Positions 18,550 through 51,033 of a stretch of 64,000 bases of DNA are shown one piece after another. Made by a program: the position numbers and the translations under genes. The notes beneath the pieces are model-generated. The model did no database searches and had not been told where the DNA came from. It worked only from the letters and a program-made list of their open reading frames with translations. This DNA comes from Affinundibacterium macrobrachii (GTDB lineage: Bacteria; Pseudomonadota; Gammaproteobacteria; Burkholderiales; Burkholderiaceae_D), in assembly GCF_014652415.1 (NCBI RefSeq), contig NZ_BMYT01000003.1, positions 62,001 to 126,000 of the forward strand, written 5' to 3'. Each line of letters opens with the position of its first letter. Position 1 is the stretch's first letter.

Positions 18550-19505
18550 TGCATTATTCTTCTCCTTGGTGGCTAACTGGCGGTCACCTTCAAACGATTT
18601 ATCCTGCAACCTTAATGCGAAAGCCTGAGGTCGCGCTTCGGCGCGAACGTTGGACTACACCCGATCAAGATTTTATCGATGTCGATTTTCTCGACGGCGA
18701 AGCGGGAAAACCTTTTCTGGTTTTATTCCATGGCTTAGAAGGCTCTAGCAATAGTCACTACGCCCGCGCCTTAATGCACAAATTAAAAAGTTTAGGTTGG
18801 TCGGGTGCAGTGCCACATTTTCGTGGCTGCTCAGGCGAGCCAAATCAAGCACCGCGTTTTTATCACTCAGGCGATGCGCAAGAAATCAACTGGATCATCC
18901 GTCGTCTGCATAGCCAATTTACAGCAGCCCATCCGCAAGCGAAGTTTTATGCCAGCGGCGTCTCGCTTGGCGGCAATGCTTTGTTGCGTTGGCTAGGTGA
19001 ATCGCAATCGAGTGCCAGTATCGTCGATGCCGCCTGCGCGGTCTCGGCACCACTAAATTTAACCAATAGCGGTGCGACTTTATCGCGTGGTTTTAATCGT
19101 ATTTATACGAAAAATTTTCTACAAACCTTAAAGCCCAAATGCCTGCACAAGCTCACGCAATTTCCCAAGCTATTTGATCGTGAACGCATGCTTAGTGCCA
19201 AGAATTTGTACGAGTTCGACAATGTCGTCACCGCACCTTTACATGGTTATCGCGATGTTGATGACTACTGGCATCGCGCCAGTGCTTGCTGGGTATTGAA
19301 TGAAATTCAAGTGCCGACCTTAGTATTAAACGCGCAGAATGACCCGTTTATGCCCGCGCAATTTTTACCCAAATCGGCATCGACTTATGTCACACTCGAT
19401 TACCCACAACATGGCGGTCACGTCGGATTTGCGCAGGGAGCCTTCCCCAGCAAACTAGATTGGCTACCGGAAAAAATCATTTCCCACCTACAAGCACATG
19501 GATGA
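18549..19505 (+). CDS. YheT-family alpha/beta hydrolase
   Basis: Alpha/beta hydrolase of the YheT (UPF0017) family. It opens with WWLTGGHLQTIYPATL, typical of the family. The oxyanion segment is LFHGLEGSSNSHY, the nucleophile elbow is SGVSLGGNALL, the acid is in NAQNDPFMP, and the catalytic His is in PQHGGHVGFA. Substrates are thought to be short-chain esters, but this is not settled. It overlaps both neighbours by a few bases and is clearly in an operon with them. Confidence 0.92.
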   Translation: MHYSSPWWLTGGHLQTIYPATLMRKPEVALRRERWTTPDQDFIDVDFLDGEAGKPFLVLFHGLEGSSNSHYARALMHKLKSLGWSGAVPHFRGCSGEPNQAPRFYHSGDAQEINWIIRRLHSQFTAAHPQAKFYASGVSLGGNALLRWLGESQSSASIVDAACAVSAPLNLTNSGATLSRGFNRIYTKNFLQTLKPKCLHKLTQFPKLFDRERMLSAKNLYEFDNVVTAPLHGYRDVDDYWHRASACWVLNEIQVPTLVLNAQNDPFMPAQFLPKSASTYVTLDYPQHGGHVGFAQGAFPSKLDWLPEKIISHLQAHG

Positions 19506-20097
19506 CATCGTTCTCGCCGCCATGGCCAAATGGCCGAATGTTCCGCATTGCTACGGCTGGCTAACTCTCGATGCACGCGGTAACTGGCGCATGCGCGACG
19601 AACGCGCACAAGCTCTGAATTTGCTAGGCGATGTGATTCGCAACCCAACACTACAGAACTTTATCAATCGCAATTATCTATGCGATGAAAATGGTAATTG
19701 GTACTTTCAAAATGGCCCGCAAAAAGTCTATGTCGACTTAGCAGCAACGCCCTATATCGCGCAAATCTTACCAGATCAAACTTGGCGCTTGCATACGGGA
19801 CAAATCATGCCGCCCGCGACACGTGTCTGGATGTTAGATGATGGGAATATTGTGTGTCAGGCAGATCAATTTCTATGTCAGCTTGACGACCGCGATATTG
19901 GACTGCTTCTCGAGACGCTCACTGAGAATCAACAGACTTTAGCTGAAGAGCGATTGCTAGAGTTCATGGAAGCATCAACAGAAAGTAGGTCTCAATTCAA
20001 GATTACTGCAAGAGTTGCTCAGCAAAAAATAGCTTTACAGAAAACGGATTTGACTAGCTTGCTAAACGAAGTTGGCTATTGCCAGAAGCCGCGTTAA
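19498..20097 (+). CDS. Conserved Burkholderiales protein of unknown function (DUF2946-like)
   Basis: A 199-residue soluble protein. The segments MAKWPNVPHCYGWLTLDARGNWRMRDE, in part, and NWYFQNGPQKVYVDL resemble a conserved family that follows YheT-like genes in Burkholderiales; I recall a DUF2944/DUF2946-type label but cannot confirm it. No signal peptide or membrane helix is seen. The C-terminal 45 residues are polar and poorly conserved in appearance. Its start lies 8 bases inside the hydrolase gene. Function unknown. Confidence 0.7.
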   Translation: MDDIVLAAMAKWPNVPHCYGWLTLDARGNWRMRDERAQALNLLGDVIRNPTLQNFINRNYLCDENGNWYFQNGPQKVYVDLAATPYIAQILPDQTWRLHTGQIMPPATRVWMLDDGNIVCQADQFLCQLDDRDIGLLLETLTENQQTLAEERLLEFMEASTESRSQFKITARVAQQKIALQKTDLTSLLNEVGYCQKPR

Positions 20098-20202: not shown

Positions 20203-20249
20203 TTTCAACGCCGAAATGACTGGAGAGAAGCGTCCGAGTCAATTGTTGA
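20203..20249 (-). other. Degenerate attC-like site after cassette gene D
   Basis: Read on the minus strand, TCAAC-A-ATTGACT, a 15-base centre, AGTCATT-TCGGC-GTTGA. It is symmetrical and begins one base after the stop of the small gene at 20251-20592, as an attC would. Its ends fit RYYYAAC / GTTRRRY poorly and it is only 47 bases, shorter than classic sites, so it may be decayed. The rest of the gap to 20098 shows nothing clear. Confidence 0.35.
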
Positions 20250-20250
20250 T

Positions 20251-20592
20251 TTAAACATGAAACCGCCGTATTAACGACTCACATGCTTCAGTTCCAATTT
20301 TTTTTGCCCATACTTCAGCGTCTTTGCATTCAGATTCGAGCTTTTCCAATGCTTCTTTCGACCAGTGCTGCCGAACCGTACCAATTGGCGGATCATCAGT
20401 TTCAGAATCAATTACAACAAAAGTCATAAAATCAGGATCATCATCTCGAACAGCGGCTTCATGCCTGAGACTAGAAAGCACACGTGCACCTTCAAGGAAA
20501 TTCAACTGCCCGCCAAGCATTAATCTGGCAGTATCAACGACACCCATTCTCACAGACGCAACGTAACTTTCATTGGTGATGTGTTCAGACAT
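20251..20592 (-). CDS. Cassette-type hypothetical protein D
   Basis: A 113-residue soluble acidic protein, not recognised. The start MSEHITNESYVASV is chosen because an attC-like site ends 4 bases upstream; the longer frame to 20652 would run through that site. Segments RLMLGGQLNFLEGARVLSSL and TFVVIDSETDDPPIGTVRQHW suggest a small mixed helix/strand domain. The size, the lack of an obvious promoter and its attC-like neighbours fit an integron gene cassette. Function unknown. Confidence 0.6.
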   Translation of the reverse strand: MSEHITNESYVASVRMGVVDTARLMLGGQLNFLEGARVLSSLRHEAAVRDDDPDFMTFVVIDSETDDPPIGTVRQHWSKEALEKLESECKDAEVWAKKIGTEACESLIRRFHV

Positions 20593-20595
20593 GAT

Positions 20596-20685
20596 GTTTA
20601 ACGTTGAATTATGCGGCGTGCACATGAAAGTAAAAAAGAAAGACGAACGCATATCTGTATGTCCGTCAAGGATGCTATGTTAAAC
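20596..20685 (-). other. Putative integron attC site (90 bp)
   Basis: On the minus strand it starts with GTTTAAC (RYYYAAC), shortly after the stop of gene C, and ends with GTTAAAC (GTTRRRY), four bases before the ATG of gene D. Internal TTGACGG and CCGCATAATTCAA can pair as the second pair of boxes, giving the imperfect hairpin typical of attC. No search was run; the call rests on core sites, symmetry and position. Confidence 0.6.
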
Positions 20686-20698
20686 ATCAAATTTAAAC

Positions 20699-21037
20699 CT
20701 ATCCTTCTCGGGTTTCGCAAGCTGGTTCATATCCAAATCGGTCTCGCAAATTCCTTACTTCTCGAAAAGTACTTTGAAAAACCTGACCATCAATTAAATG
20801 CATCTCAGCGATAAACTTTTCTTCGGCGATCTTTTCGGAGGCACAATCAAAACTGTGGCTTGAGAATGGACAAAGGCTAGTTAAAACATCAGATCTCCAC
20901 GTTCTTGTGGAAAAAAATTTGACTGGCTTATGTTTTTTATTCCCACGATTAAAACGAAGCTCCCACTCCTCCCAATATTCCCCATCACGAAAACTTACTA
21001 GTACAATTTTGGACGAGTGCTTACGCTGAGAAGTCAT
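20699..21037 (-). CDS. Cassette-type hypothetical protein C
   Basis: A 112-residue soluble basic protein, not recognised. It begins MTSQRKHSSKIVLVSFRDGE and contains EYWEEWELRFNRGNKKHKPV and FIAEMHLIDGQVFQSTFREV, suggesting a small beta-rich domain. The gene is bracketed by putative attC sites at 21047-21103 (upstream) and 20596-20685 (downstream), the arrangement of an integron cassette. No motif allows a functional guess. Confidence 0.6.
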   Translation of the reverse strand: MTSQRKHSSKIVLVSFRDGEYWEEWELRFNRGNKKHKPVKFFSTRTWRSDVLTSLCPFSSHSFDCASEKIAEEKFIAEMHLIDGQVFQSTFREVRNLRDRFGYEPACETREG

Positions 21038-21046
21038 GTTGAAGAA

Positions 21047-21103
21047 GTTTAACGTAAAATTAATAAGCGCAAAAGGCGTCGCTGTTGAATGGAAAGTTAA
21101 AAG
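21047..21103 (-). other. Putative integron attC site (57 bp, best example)
   Basis: On the minus strand: TTTTAAC core, then CATTCAACAGCGACGCC, a TTTT loop, GCGCTTATTAATTTTAC, and GTTAAAC. The CATTCAA..CGACGCC block closely resembles the left boxes of classic attC sites (CGTTCAAGCCGACGCC), and the ends match the RYYYAAC/GTTRRRY rule apart from the first base. At 57 bases it has the length of the shortest known sites. It follows gene B by 12 bases and precedes gene C by 9. Confidence 0.7.
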
Positions 21104-21115
21104 TCACGACGAACA

Positions 21116-21397
21116 TTATTTCGGGCACACTACTTTCAATGGTAATCCGTCCTTGTAAGCAAAGTACTCGATACATTTCAATCCAGCTCTTTCAACAGAT
21201 CTTTCGCCGAACGACGAGGCATAGTCCACCTCGAATAATTCTACCTTTCCGTCGCGGTTTAAGTCCATCTCGGTATACAACAACGGCGACGAATAAACCA
21301 TCCAGCCAAACAGCGCCCAATAGCAGCCGACAAGACTAAGTGCGGTGAACGCAATCGCCTTTCCTGCCCTACTTATAACTGGGCTACGATCCTCCAT
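21116..21397 (-). CDS. Cassette-type membrane protein B with an EF-hand-like loop
   Basis: A 93-residue protein with one N-terminal hydrophobic helix (about 14-36, AFTALSLVGCYWALFGWMVY) and an exported C-terminal part. Residues DLNRDGKVELFE form a complete 12-residue EF-hand calcium loop (D1, N3, D5, G6, E12). Two cysteines lie near the C-terminus (LKC, VVC). No close family is recognised. The gene is flanked by putative attC sites on both sides, so it is probably an acquired cassette. Confidence 0.65.
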   Translation of the reverse strand: MEDRSPVISRAGKAIAFTALSLVGCYWALFGWMVYSSPLLYTEMDLNRDGKVELFEVDYASSFGERSVERAGLKCIEYFAYKDGLPLKVVCPK

Positions 21398-21399
21398 GA

Positions 21400-21490
21400 C
21401 TTTTAACGCTGATTTGAAAGGCGCGCGCGCATTTCACTAAATTTTAAGAATGATTCGATTCGCGCGTCATTTTCGAAAGTCATGTTAAAC
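21400..21490 (-). other. Putative integron attC site (91 bp)
   Basis: On the minus strand it starts GTTTAAC, continues ATGACTTTCGAAAATGACGCGCG, split across the left boxes, and ends CGCGCGCCTTTCAAATCAGC then GTTAAAA, three bases before the ATG of gene B. The GCGCG and TTTGAAA/TTTCGAAA blocks pair to give the expected long imperfect hairpin. Confidence 0.6.
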
Positions 21491-21604
21491 CTTATTAGAG
21501 CATCGCCCATATTTTTGACATCCCAATTCCAGCAATAAATAACGAGGCGATGATTTCACATAGAAAAAAGAATGGTGACTCTTCCCGACTAATGCTTGGA
21601 CGAT

Positions 21605-21790
21605 TTATGCAAATTCCTCTCGCAAATCGAGCACAACGAAAGTAAGCCCGCCACCGATTAACGCAGCAGCAAATATTAATTCCAAAGGTTTAACCAACAC
21701 ACTTGAAATCGGAACAAGTGCATTTAAAATTCCAACAATGGCAATGACGCCAATGATGAGGATTGCGCGTCTATCGGGCATTTCAAACAT
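21605..21790 (-). CDS. Small two-helix membrane protein A
   Basis: A 61-residue very hydrophobic protein with two predicted transmembrane helices (about 9-30 and 38-56: ILIIGVIAIVGILNALV, ELIFAAALIGGGLTFVVL). Not recognised. It is the right-most gene of the cassette-like run; the attC-like site at 21400-21490 begins 114 bases after its stop, a longer spacing than in the other cassettes. The 114-base stretch holds no clear gene. Confidence 0.5.
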   Translation of the reverse strand: MFEMPDRRAILIIGVIAIVGILNALVPISSVLVKPLELIFAAALIGGGLTFVVLDLREEFA

Positions 21791-21806
21791 AATGATTAAC
21801 TAGATA

Positions 21807-21827
21807 TAGGCGACACAGTGTCACCTA
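21807..21827. promoter_or_regulatory. 21-base palindrome upstream of gene A
   Basis: TAGG-C-GACAC-A-GTGTC-A-CCTA is symmetrical in both half-sites and lies 17 bases before the gene A start on the minus strand. It could be an operator or hairpin. No integrase recombination core of the usual form is seen beyond it. Confidence 0.35.
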
Positions 21828-21994
21828 ATAATTTAAGATGGCGCATAAGATTTTTCATTCATCGCCTCCAAAGGTTTGTAAACATTGGGTTTCCGACATA
21901 GCACCGCGCATTTGATCTCTACTAAAATTTCCGTGAAATACGTCATCATGTTCTTGCATTTTACCAAACATCATGACGATTCAAACCACACTTC

Positions 21995-23596
21995 TTACTT
22001 CCCCTTCTTCTCCTCTTCCATTTCCTCTTTACGCTTTTCTTTCCATTCACGCTCACGCGCGTCTATCACCGACAAGTCGTAATATTTCACATCAGGATCA
22101 AGGCGGGCGATTTCTAATTGGGCTAGTGCTGCGGGTAGCGCACCTTCTAAGGCGTAGGCTTCGGCTAAGGCAATATGTTGTAGCGCTTGCTTGCCTTCTA
22201 CGGCATAGGCTTTGGCTAACAAATGCTGTAACTTAGCTTCGCGGCGATACAGGCTGATCTGGTCACGCAGAAAGGCTTCGGCTTCTTTGTAGTTTTTTGC
22301 CTCGATCAATACTTCGGCGTATTGATGCGCCAGACCGCGTGCCAATGGCAAGTCACGCAAGGCAGCTTTGGCTTTGGCGACGGCTAAATCTGGACGCTTT
22401 TTACCCATTTCAATATCGATCGCCAAACTCGCAAAAGCGCTGGTTTCTTTTAACCATTTTTTTTGATTTGGCAATTGCGCGATTTGCGCGGTTAATGCAT
22501 CTAAGAGTTTTTCGGCTTTCAGAAAATCATTTTTTTTGTAGGCAACAAATGCCAAGCCGTAGTGTCCACTGAGGCGACTTTCTTCATTTCCATTTTTGAT
22601 TTGATTTTCAAACGCGACTGCGGCATCGATCAAGCCTTGCGCTTTACTGTCTTGCAAAACGCGTACGCGTGCTTGCGTCAAATAAAAATCCAAACCATCA
22701 ACGCGTTGGCGATAGCGTTCACCAAATAAGCGGCCTTGGATATCTGCCATCCGTTCACTGGTGAGTGGATGACTACGCAAATAAGACAAACCATTGTCGG
22801 TGTAGTTGCGCGACGCATGCTGCATACGTCCAAAAAACGCCAGCATACCCGCCGTATCGTAGCCGCCATCTTTAAGAATTTGAAAACCAATACGATCTGC
22901 CTCACGCTCTGCATCACGACTAAAACTCAGTTGCCTTTGCATTGCTAAGCCTTGCCCGCCCATCACCATCGCCATTGCAGCGTCTGGGCTAGAGCGCGCA
23001 GCCAAGGCCGCCAAAATAATTGCGGCAATCGGAATTAAGAAATCATTTTTTTGATTGCCCAACATACGAGCGATATGCCGTTGTGACACATGCCCAATTT
23101 CATGTCCCATGACGGATGCCAATTCAGATTCGGATTGCGCTGCCAAAATCAAACCAGAATGGAAGCCTAAGAAACCACCGGGGAAGGCGAACGCATTTAA
23201 AACGGGATCGCGTACCGCAAAAAACTCAAACTCATAAGATTCTTCGCCACGCGCATCGGGACGTTTATCCAATAAAGAATTGCCGAGTTTGGTTAAGTAT
23301 TCAATCACCGGACCATCTTCGAGAAAATCAGGATCGCGTCTCACGCTACTCATAATTTGCTCACCAATCTTGCGTTCCATCATCGGCGACAAATCACCAC
23401 GCGCGGCATCGCCCAAGGTGGGCAAGCTTTGGTTCTTAGACACACTCTGCGTACTAATTGAGGCTGGCGACGGAACGGTAGAGATCGTGCCGGTTTGCGC
23501 ATAACCCACGTGTGACAAGATAAATGCACAGCCCAAACTCATCGAGAGCGTGAGCTGGATCAACTTAAAACGAAATTGCGGGAATTCTTTTTTCAC
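21995..23596 (-). CDS. Periplasmic M48 metalloprotease with TPR repeats (BepA/YfgC-like)
   Basis: Outer-membrane quality-control protease and chaperone type. A Sec signal peptide (IQLTLSMSLGCAFILSHVGYAQ) precedes a metalloprotease domain with the zinc motif MGHEIGHVSQRHIA and the third ligand in READRIGFQIL. The C-terminal half (about 300-520) consists of TPR-like helices, and the tail is Lys/Glu-rich. The start is GTG at 23596, which gives the complete signal peptide; the next Met lies within it. E. coli BepA handles LptD and BamA assembly; the same role is inferred. Confidence 0.93.
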   Translation of the reverse strand: MKKEFPQFRFKLIQLTLSMSLGCAFILSHVGYAQTGTISTVPSPASISTQSVSKNQSLPTLGDAARGDLSPMMERKIGEQIMSSVRRDPDFLEDGPVIEYLTKLGNSLLDKRPDARGEESYEFEFFAVRDPVLNAFAFPGGFLGFHSGLILAAQSESELASVMGHEIGHVSQRHIARMLGNQKNDFLIPIAAIILAALAARSSPDAAMAMVMGGQGLAMQRQLSFSRDAEREADRIGFQILKDGGYDTAGMLAFFGRMQHASRNYTDNGLSYLRSHPLTSERMADIQGRLFGERYRQRVDGLDFYLTQARVRVLQDSKAQGLIDAAVAFENQIKNGNEESRLSGHYGLAFVAYKKNDFLKAEKLLDALTAQIAQLPNQKKWLKETSAFASLAIDIEMGKKRPDLAVAKAKAALRDLPLARGLAHQYAEVLIEAKNYKEAEAFLRDQISLYRREAKLQHLLAKAYAVEGKQALQHIALAEAYALEGALPAALAQLEIARLDPDVKYYDLSVIDAREREWKEKRKEEMEEEKKGK

Positions 23597-50792: not shown

Positions 50793-50869
50793 CGGAGTGT
50801 AGCGCAGCCCGGTAGCGCACCTGGTTTGGGACCAGGGGGTCCAAGGTTCGAATCCTTGTACTCCGACCA
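50793..50869 (+). tRNA. tRNA-Pro (anticodon UGG), copy 1
   Basis: 77-base cloverleaf with CCA encoded: acceptor CGGAGTG / TACTCCG, D-arm GCGCAGCCCGGTAGCGC, anticodon arm CCTGG-TTTGGGA-CCAGG (anticodon TGG), T-arm CAAGGTTCGAATCCTTG. Identical to copy 2, 87 bases downstream. Confidence 0.98.
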
Positions 50870-50875
50870 AATTTA

Positions 50876-50907
50876 AAGGATCGTTGAGAAATCGACGATC
50901 CTTTTTA
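50876..50907 (+). terminator. Rho-independent terminator after tRNA-Pro copy 1
   Basis: AAAGGATCGT / ACGATCCTTT stem with a T tract; each tRNA-Pro copy thus has its own terminator. Confidence 0.92.
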
Positions 50908-50956
50908 GTTTCACCAAATTTAGTTATTTAAACTTTTTTAAATGACCCAAAGTTTT

Positions 50957-51033
50957 CGGAGTGTAGCGCAGCCCGGTAGCGCACCTGGTTTGGGACCAGG
51001 GGGTCCAAGGTTCGAATCCTTGTACTCCGACCA
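50957..51033 (+). tRNA. tRNA-Pro (anticodon UGG), copy 2
   Basis: All 77 bases, including CCA, equal copy 1. The flanking sequences differ, so the duplication covers little more than the tRNA itself (the shared stretch is about 80 bases). Confidence 0.98.

Follow-up and report, generated by a model that had tools for sequence, protein, structure and literature searches.

Does an array of integron cassettes that has no integrase gene beside it lie inert in the chromosome, or can it still take part in recombination? We addressed this question at a locus within a 64,000-nt stretch of DNA (the window) from the Affinundibacterium macrobrachii genome (4.27 Mb in 20 contigs), in which the original prediction had recognised a cluster of attC sites lacking an integrase (CALIN) in a chromosomal housekeeping region. 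One proposal sees such clusters as degraded integrons (PMC9024848). We analysed the attC sites and the genes between them, the ends of the array, the same locus in related Undibacterium species, and the integrases and cassettes found elsewhere in the genus.

A cassette array between housekeeping genes

The array occupies an interval of about 1.9 kb, bounded by a DUF2946 gene and by a gene (21995–23596) that we take to be bepA, encoding an M48 peptidase; the housekeeping setting is therefore as predicted. Elsewhere in the window, two tRNA-Pro(TGG) genes lie side by side at 50793–51033.

attC sites were searched for with two models. The first, R1, a narrower model built on 8 seeds, missed all four attC sites of the window, though it gave many matches in other arrays. 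Since R1 is blind to the AT-rich sites of the window array, it was replaced by R2, a model built in this analysis and distinct from that of IntegronFinder, from 90 R1 matches in 18 stretches adjoining intI (L091–L097, L099 and L101–L110). Two of these 90 are the opposite strand of another match and two are sites from the C4 array of the same genome; none comes from the window locus. Run unfiltered over the 64-kb window, R2 gave nine matches at E ≤ 10, and the four best are the array sites, all on the minus strand (three at 20–23 bits and a weak one), so that the predicted attC cluster is borne out by a model search. The best match outside the array scored 10.0 bits, against 10.2 for the weakest array site. 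The features of the locus are the following.

19498–20097, plus strand: DUF2946 gene, distal housekeeping flank (PF11161, Pfam E 4e-62); order kept in relatives
20203–20256, minus strand: degenerate attC past gene 1, distal end of the array; weak (R2 10.2 bits, E 2.9, fourth of nine in the window)
20251–20592, minus strand: cassette gene 1, DUF2489-like (Pfam E 0.0045, below cut-off)
20596–20685, minus strand: attC between genes 2 and 1 (R2 22.8 bits, E 0.004; R boxes pair 7/7)
20699–21037, minus strand: cassette gene 2, an ORF of no family
21047–21102, minus strand: attC between genes 3 and 2 (R2 20.2 bits, E 0.016)
21116–21397, minus strand: cassette gene 3, small protein with sporadic homologues (homologue searches)
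21401–21490, minus strand: attC between genes 4 and 3 (R2 20.6 bits, E 0.012), kin of U. seohonense attC sites
21605–21790, minus strand: cassette gene 4, an ORF for a small membrane-like protein, probably frameshifted (second frame by eye)
21796–21858, minus strand: putative attI leader ORF, 20 codons, MKNLMRHLKLLGDTVSPISS (GGAGG upstream; by analogy with ORF-11, PMC8876359)
21798–21909, minus strand: attI, crossover G^TT at 21800/21799 (nhmmer E 2.4e-12; 89.1 bits with model R3, which includes this site)
21948–21976, plus strand: intI stub, the first 10 or so codons (extended profile match, E 2.2e-14)
21995–23596, minus strand: bepA-like M48 peptidase gene, proximal housekeeping flank, present in five clade relatives

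The core boxes lie where they had been claimed: four small minus-strand genes are accompanied by three core-box sites whose R' boxes end 3, 9 and 3 nt 5' of the ATGs of genes 1, 2 and 3, and the box at the attI junction likewise lies 3 nt from the ATG of the first cassette. The small genes end directly before an attC site and the R' boxes lie near the next ATG, as in integron cassettes, with the 3' end of gene 4 as the exception; read by eye, a second frame seems to extend this gene to just short of the attC at 21490, and it is probably frameshifted. The site at 21403–21490 is 79–85% identical over 86–87 nt to attC sites of three integrase-linked arrays of U. seohonense, one of these matches reaching 84.9% over 86 nt (E 2e-20), and has further matches at 74–84%. 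Rfam scans of the window and the region returned nothing relevant. Of the sites picked up by a strict regular-expression attC finder, 19 came from a single array and 5 from the remaining 18 stretches. The plus (bottom) strand folds slightly better than the minus strand at all four attC sites, but its folds are not significantly better than those of shuffled sequences (z from +0.14 to −1.28).

The cassette genes are rare. In a sample of 398 other genomes from the order, homologues at E ≤ 1e-6 were found for gene 1 in four and for gene 2 in none, and gene 3 has homologues in three. Two of the four gene 1 homologues, in genomes of two other genera (G251 and G303), lie between attC sites on the gene's own strand; attC sites were looked for and not found at the remaining two, and none of the three gene 3 homologues has an adjoining attC match. 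A plasmid search (E ≤ 0.01, 72,556 records) detected gene 1 in seven records, gene 3 in four and gene 2 in none. As to function, NCBIfam gave no match at E ≤ 0.1, and PADLOC and PHROGs gave matches only at E ≥ 0.01.

An attI site without its integrase gene

The bepA-side end of the array holds two elements that the original prediction had missed, an attI site and a remnant of intI. Firstly, a profile of three integrase-linked attI sequences, from U. baiyunense (G032), U. fentianense (G065) and genome G062, matched the window at 21946–21797 (nhmmer, E 2.4e-12; next window match, E 1.1). Secondly, an extended profile, enlarged by a fourth sequence and reaching about 60 nt into intI, matched at 21976–21797 (E 2.2e-14), a match that spans about 10 intI codons. 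Thirdly, the extended profile matched the bepA locus of U. flavidum (G023, E 1.4e-22), U. baiyunense (E 2.4e-19), U. seohonense (G009, E 6.5e-18) and U. fentianense (E 4.5e-16). It had no match in U. amnicola (G030), where the array begins upstream of attI and attI is missing. From the bepA side, the order is thus a remnant of about 10 intI codons, the attI site and, from the G^TT crossover onwards, the first cassette. An identical ...CTATATCTAG^TT marks the start of the first cassette in the window genome, U. baiyunense and U. flavidum; the G of the crossover is altered in U. fentianense and U. seohonense. The locus has an attI beside its first cassette, as a complete integron does, and lacks a functional intI in cis. 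The structural reading, an attI-bearing integron with its integrase deleted, is near certain. Because attI and the intI stub remain, the CALIN reading needs extending to an integron that lost its integrase: the attC cluster, the small cassette genes and the lack of an adjoining integrase hold, and the locus is more than a plain CALIN.

A short ORF runs through this attI site. It starts after a GGAGG motif, reaches the crossover in 20 codons and receives its stop from the first cassette, where GTTAATC gives TAA in the window genome, GTTGAGG gives TGA in U. baiyunense and GTTAGGC gives TAG in U. flavidum. In a motif search, an ORF of at least 20 codons starts at this place at 14 of 18 strong attI sites; the bepA site of U. 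seohonense, where the leader ORF is broken, is among the four without. Variable sites in the leader-ORF stretch number 4, 4 and 6 by codon position among four sequences and therefore provide no coding signal. Comparing the leader-ORF/attI stretch with the intI-promoter stretch, identities between the window genome and its relatives are 71/76 versus 49/59 (U. baiyunense), 67/76 versus 46/59 (U. fentianense) and 65/76 versus 47/59 (U. flavidum). The leader-ORF/attI stretch is the less conserved of the two between the window genome and U. seohonense (39/76 versus 44/59) and between U. flavidum and U. seohonense (41/76 versus 52/59). In class 1 integrons, ORF-11 of attI1 couples translation to the first cassette (PMC8876359); by analogy, the leader ORF may help to translate the first cassette here. 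A consensus scan of the cassette strand for a cassette promoter (Pc), which is a weak kind of scan, gave no match. An inverted repeat lies beside the crossover, at window positions 21807–21827; it is also seen at several orphan attI sites and is absent from the three integrase-linked attI sites aligned. We weighed this palindrome as a terminator or a binding site, and a terminator search gave no match.

Different arrays at one locus in related species

The order abhydrolase–DUF2946–bepA–moaC is kept in most of the stretches compared. The window genome groups with U. fentianense, U. baiyunense, U. amnicola, U. flavidum and U. seohonense in a clade of six (a tree of three proteins from 17 genomes gives it 0.999 support), in which 1.3–3.3 kb separate DUF2946 from bepA and the arrays measure 1.1–3.1 kb. 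At 17 of the 37 genus loci, the alignments of DUF2946 and bepA end just 36–290 bp apart, and at 14, outside the clade, bepA does not lie within the 1.5 kb compared. Six of these 14 were viewed at 10 kb: in G018 the interval is 4.5 kb long and contains larger genes, a bepA match lies 7–8 kb away in G034, G029 and G012, G026 has only a weak bepA match and G014 none. A search of these six with the attI model R3, described below, found no attI.

In blastn comparisons with the window, all five relatives of the clade align without a break from bepA as far as the stub or attI; the alignment of U. amnicola ends at window position 21955, inside the stub. Given these unbroken alignments and the shared junction, one ancestral intI deletion is the simplest account. 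We had initially read the shared junction as an attG hotspot and dropped this reading, the junction being homologous to attI.

The arrays themselves differ entirely. With tblastx (E < 1e-3), no cassette gene is common to any two of the six clade arrays, the sole matches being in the distal flank of U. flavidum and U. amnicola; with blastn, a 47-nt flank is common to U. amnicola and U. baiyunense. Even the window genome and U. baiyunense, whose bepA-side flanks are 94.9% identical, have no cassette gene in common. The four genes are thus not a fixed block in relatives, an outcome that agrees with the original prediction. Since the gene content of the bepA spot differs between related species, it has probably been exchanged by integrases encoded elsewhere. 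Genes 1–4 were not found at 38 other integron-related loci (tblastn, E < 1e-2), so that turnover at the window locus rests on the differences between species. At the bepA array of U. baiyunense, two ORFs run against the direction of the other cassette genes and, by eye, look like a ParD/ParE antitoxin–toxin pair.

Integrases, attI sites and cassettes elsewhere in the genus

That the locus is integrase-less, as predicted, holds for its immediate surroundings: a TIGR02249 search of the window genome found no integron integrase near C3:82–84 kb, the position of the locus. The description falls short in that the stub persists there and that the genome encodes one intact IntI elsewhere (C4:86813–87763, 436 bits, cut-off 265); the same search found a truncated intI at C3:240915. 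The latter (L009:8763–9329, at C3:240.8 kb) is a 188-aa ORF adjoined by two attC matches. IntI scores above the cut-off in 34 of the 98 genomes searched, this one included. Within the clade, intact IntI is encoded by four of the six genomes (the window genome, U. baiyunense, U. fentianense and U. seohonense), and U. flavidum and U. amnicola have only IntI fragments. The IntI of the window genome shares about 61% identity with the U. baiyunense type, which is the type linked to attI sites of the window kind, and R3 detected no such attI beside it. The matching integrase may therefore be gone and the array static now. Both the window-genome and U. baiyunense intI genes adjoin groES (groES/groEL read by eye), at a locus where the sequence contains what is presumably a CIRCE element. 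At this groES locus (L008:11802–12785, L092), the two integrases show only 61% identity, against 94% for the DNA outside the arrays; it seems that the integrase itself was swapped at this one site.

R3, built from 11 sequences that include the window site and several of its matches, gave 47 matches in 18 of the 43 genus genomes, those below 45 bits possibly including unrelated sequence. Four are in the window genome (89.1, 84.4, 24.6 and 22.4 bits, the latter two weak). We inspected 33 of the 47: full-length intI lies beside five, intI with stops beside one (G005) and partial intI stretches beside two, and none was detected beside 25. Restricted to strong matches (≥55 bits, n = 18), 4 have a full intI and 14 do not. 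A second strong orphan attI of the window genome (C2:294227–294336, L171) has a leader peptide identical to that of the U. baiyunense integrase-linked attI; 20 intI codons are left (90% identical) and an attC lies 308 nt downstream.

Cassettes are common to loci of both kinds. At the C3:421 kb locus of the window genome, a weak attI match has only about 28 intI codons beside it, and the distal cassette (a 188-aa ORF and its attC) matches the second cassette in the IntI array of the sister species U. baiyunense (88.8% over 776 bp), from 9 nt ahead of one G^TT up to the next. At the same locus in U. baiyunense the flanks are 94–96% identical, with only short matches between them (95 nt at 80%; 150 nt at 67%). 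Similarly, the IntI stretch of G062 and the C2:385 kb cluster of the window genome have a 1,790-bp block in common (88.9%), and a gene of the U. seohonense bepA array is also present at the C61 locus of its sister U. flavidum (80.5% over 447 bp). Since cassettes are common to integrase-linked and integrase-less loci, they pass between them in the genus; we infer the same passage for the window's own array. The window genome also carries a CALIN with five attC matches (C6:90.8–97.4 kb, L173), in which a segment of about 480–495 bp is present in two copies, both 88–89% like one in the U. baiyunense IntI array.

Discussion

We consider it probable that the locus is a sedentary integron from which the integrase was deleted and whose orphan attI went on exchanging cassettes through an integrase acting in trans. 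According to this model, the ancestor of the six Undibacterium species carried the integron between DUF2946 and bepA; a single deletion would have removed intI except for about 10 codons, leaving the stub by the end of bepA, and attI with its leader ORF would have survived. A distant, chromosomally encoded integrase would then act in trans, through attI × attC and attC × attC recombination, and cassettes, four of them here, would have kept being gained and lost at the orphan attI. Service of the orphan attI by an integrase encoded elsewhere is likely, to judge from the sequences compared, but unproven. Against it stand U. flavidum and U. amnicola, without intact IntI, the crossover G altered in U. 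fentianense and U. seohonense, and the broken leader ORF and poorly conserved leader-ORF/attI stretch of the latter. The start of the U. amnicola array upstream of attI, the failure to find genes 1–4 at the 38 other loci, the attC folds no better than those of shuffles and the lack of a promoter match also count against it, as does the divergence of the one intact IntI of the window genome. We propose, more tentatively, that Undibacterium harbours a distributed integron, in which one integrase, often by groES, would serve dispersed attI platforms without intI; these platforms would keep attI and the leader ORF and swap whole cassettes with the master array.

The array might instead have stopped changing after intI was lost, if the species lost different parts of a long ancestral array or imported whole bepA–DUF2946 segments by homologous recombination. 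The window genome may be without a matching integrase, two relatives have an altered crossover, gene 4 seems to carry a frameshift, the distal attC scores weakly, and Xanthomonas arrays are described as more stable where intI is inactivated (PMC12444791), all of which would fit such a relic. We nevertheless hold it to be unlikely, as the six arrays are without a common cassette gene, even between the window genome and U. baiyunense with their 94.9% identical bepA-side flank, and as one cassette is common to an intI-less and an IntI locus elsewhere. Far less probable is an ordinary CALIN arising from cassette insertion at a non-specific attG, without attI: attG recombination has been described (PMC12901181, PMC12444791) and the U. 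amnicola array starts at a different point, but a stretch of 150–180 nt homologous to intI/attI (E 2e-12 to 2e-14) contradicts it, and the first cassettes of the window genome, U. baiyunense and U. flavidum begin at one G^TT. That there is no integron at all, only unrelated small genes and chance AT-rich palindromes, as the lack of R1 and Rfam matches and folds no better than shuffles could suggest, can practically be dismissed in view of the R2 ranking, the attC identity to integrase-linked arrays, the attI match and the gene 1 homologues flanked by attC sites in two further genera.

The integrase-deleted integron with its retained attI resembles CALINs as described (PMC9024848) in its several attC cassettes, one orientation and lack of an adjoining integrase, and differs from them in keeping a recognisable attI, a leader ORF and an intI stub. 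According to the same report, IntegronFinder does not detect attI sites other than those of class 1, so that the window attI would escape it. The ilvD integrons of Xanthomonas (PMC12444791) are likewise ancestral integrons at a fixed housekeeping locus whose integrase was lost in some lineages, and CALINs occur there at other, fairly conserved places. The difference is that those arrays are described as stabler after intI inactivation, whereas here wholly different arrays follow one deletion junction. In two Xanthomonas species with inactivated intI, genes found in a single isolate make up 28.7% and 38% of cassette genes, and trans mobilisation of CALINs by a functional IntI is taken to be possible (PMC12444791). 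As in class 1 attI1 with ORF-11 (PMC8876359), a short ORF with a Shine–Dalgarno sequence runs to the crossover and takes its stop from the GTTRRRY of the cassette; here the putative peptide is another one, of about 20 codons, at a chromosomal site with no adjoining integrase. In Shewanella, arrays distant from intI (CALINs and SALINs) are also common within one genus (PMC9229058), and that account of them does not mention attI sites at those arrays. A literature search on Undibacterium and integrons returned no paper on Undibacterium integrons by title.

One integrase-deletion junction is shared by species in which all compared cassette genes differ, which suggests that the integron may have kept acquiring genes after integrase loss, with attI retained and another integrase present in the cell. 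The leader ORF of this attI seems to be an independent instance of the class 1 arrangement. Since IntegronFinder does not seek such attI sites, attI-bearing CALINs may be overlooked elsewhere, and Undibacterium offers a natural test of trans-acting integrases.
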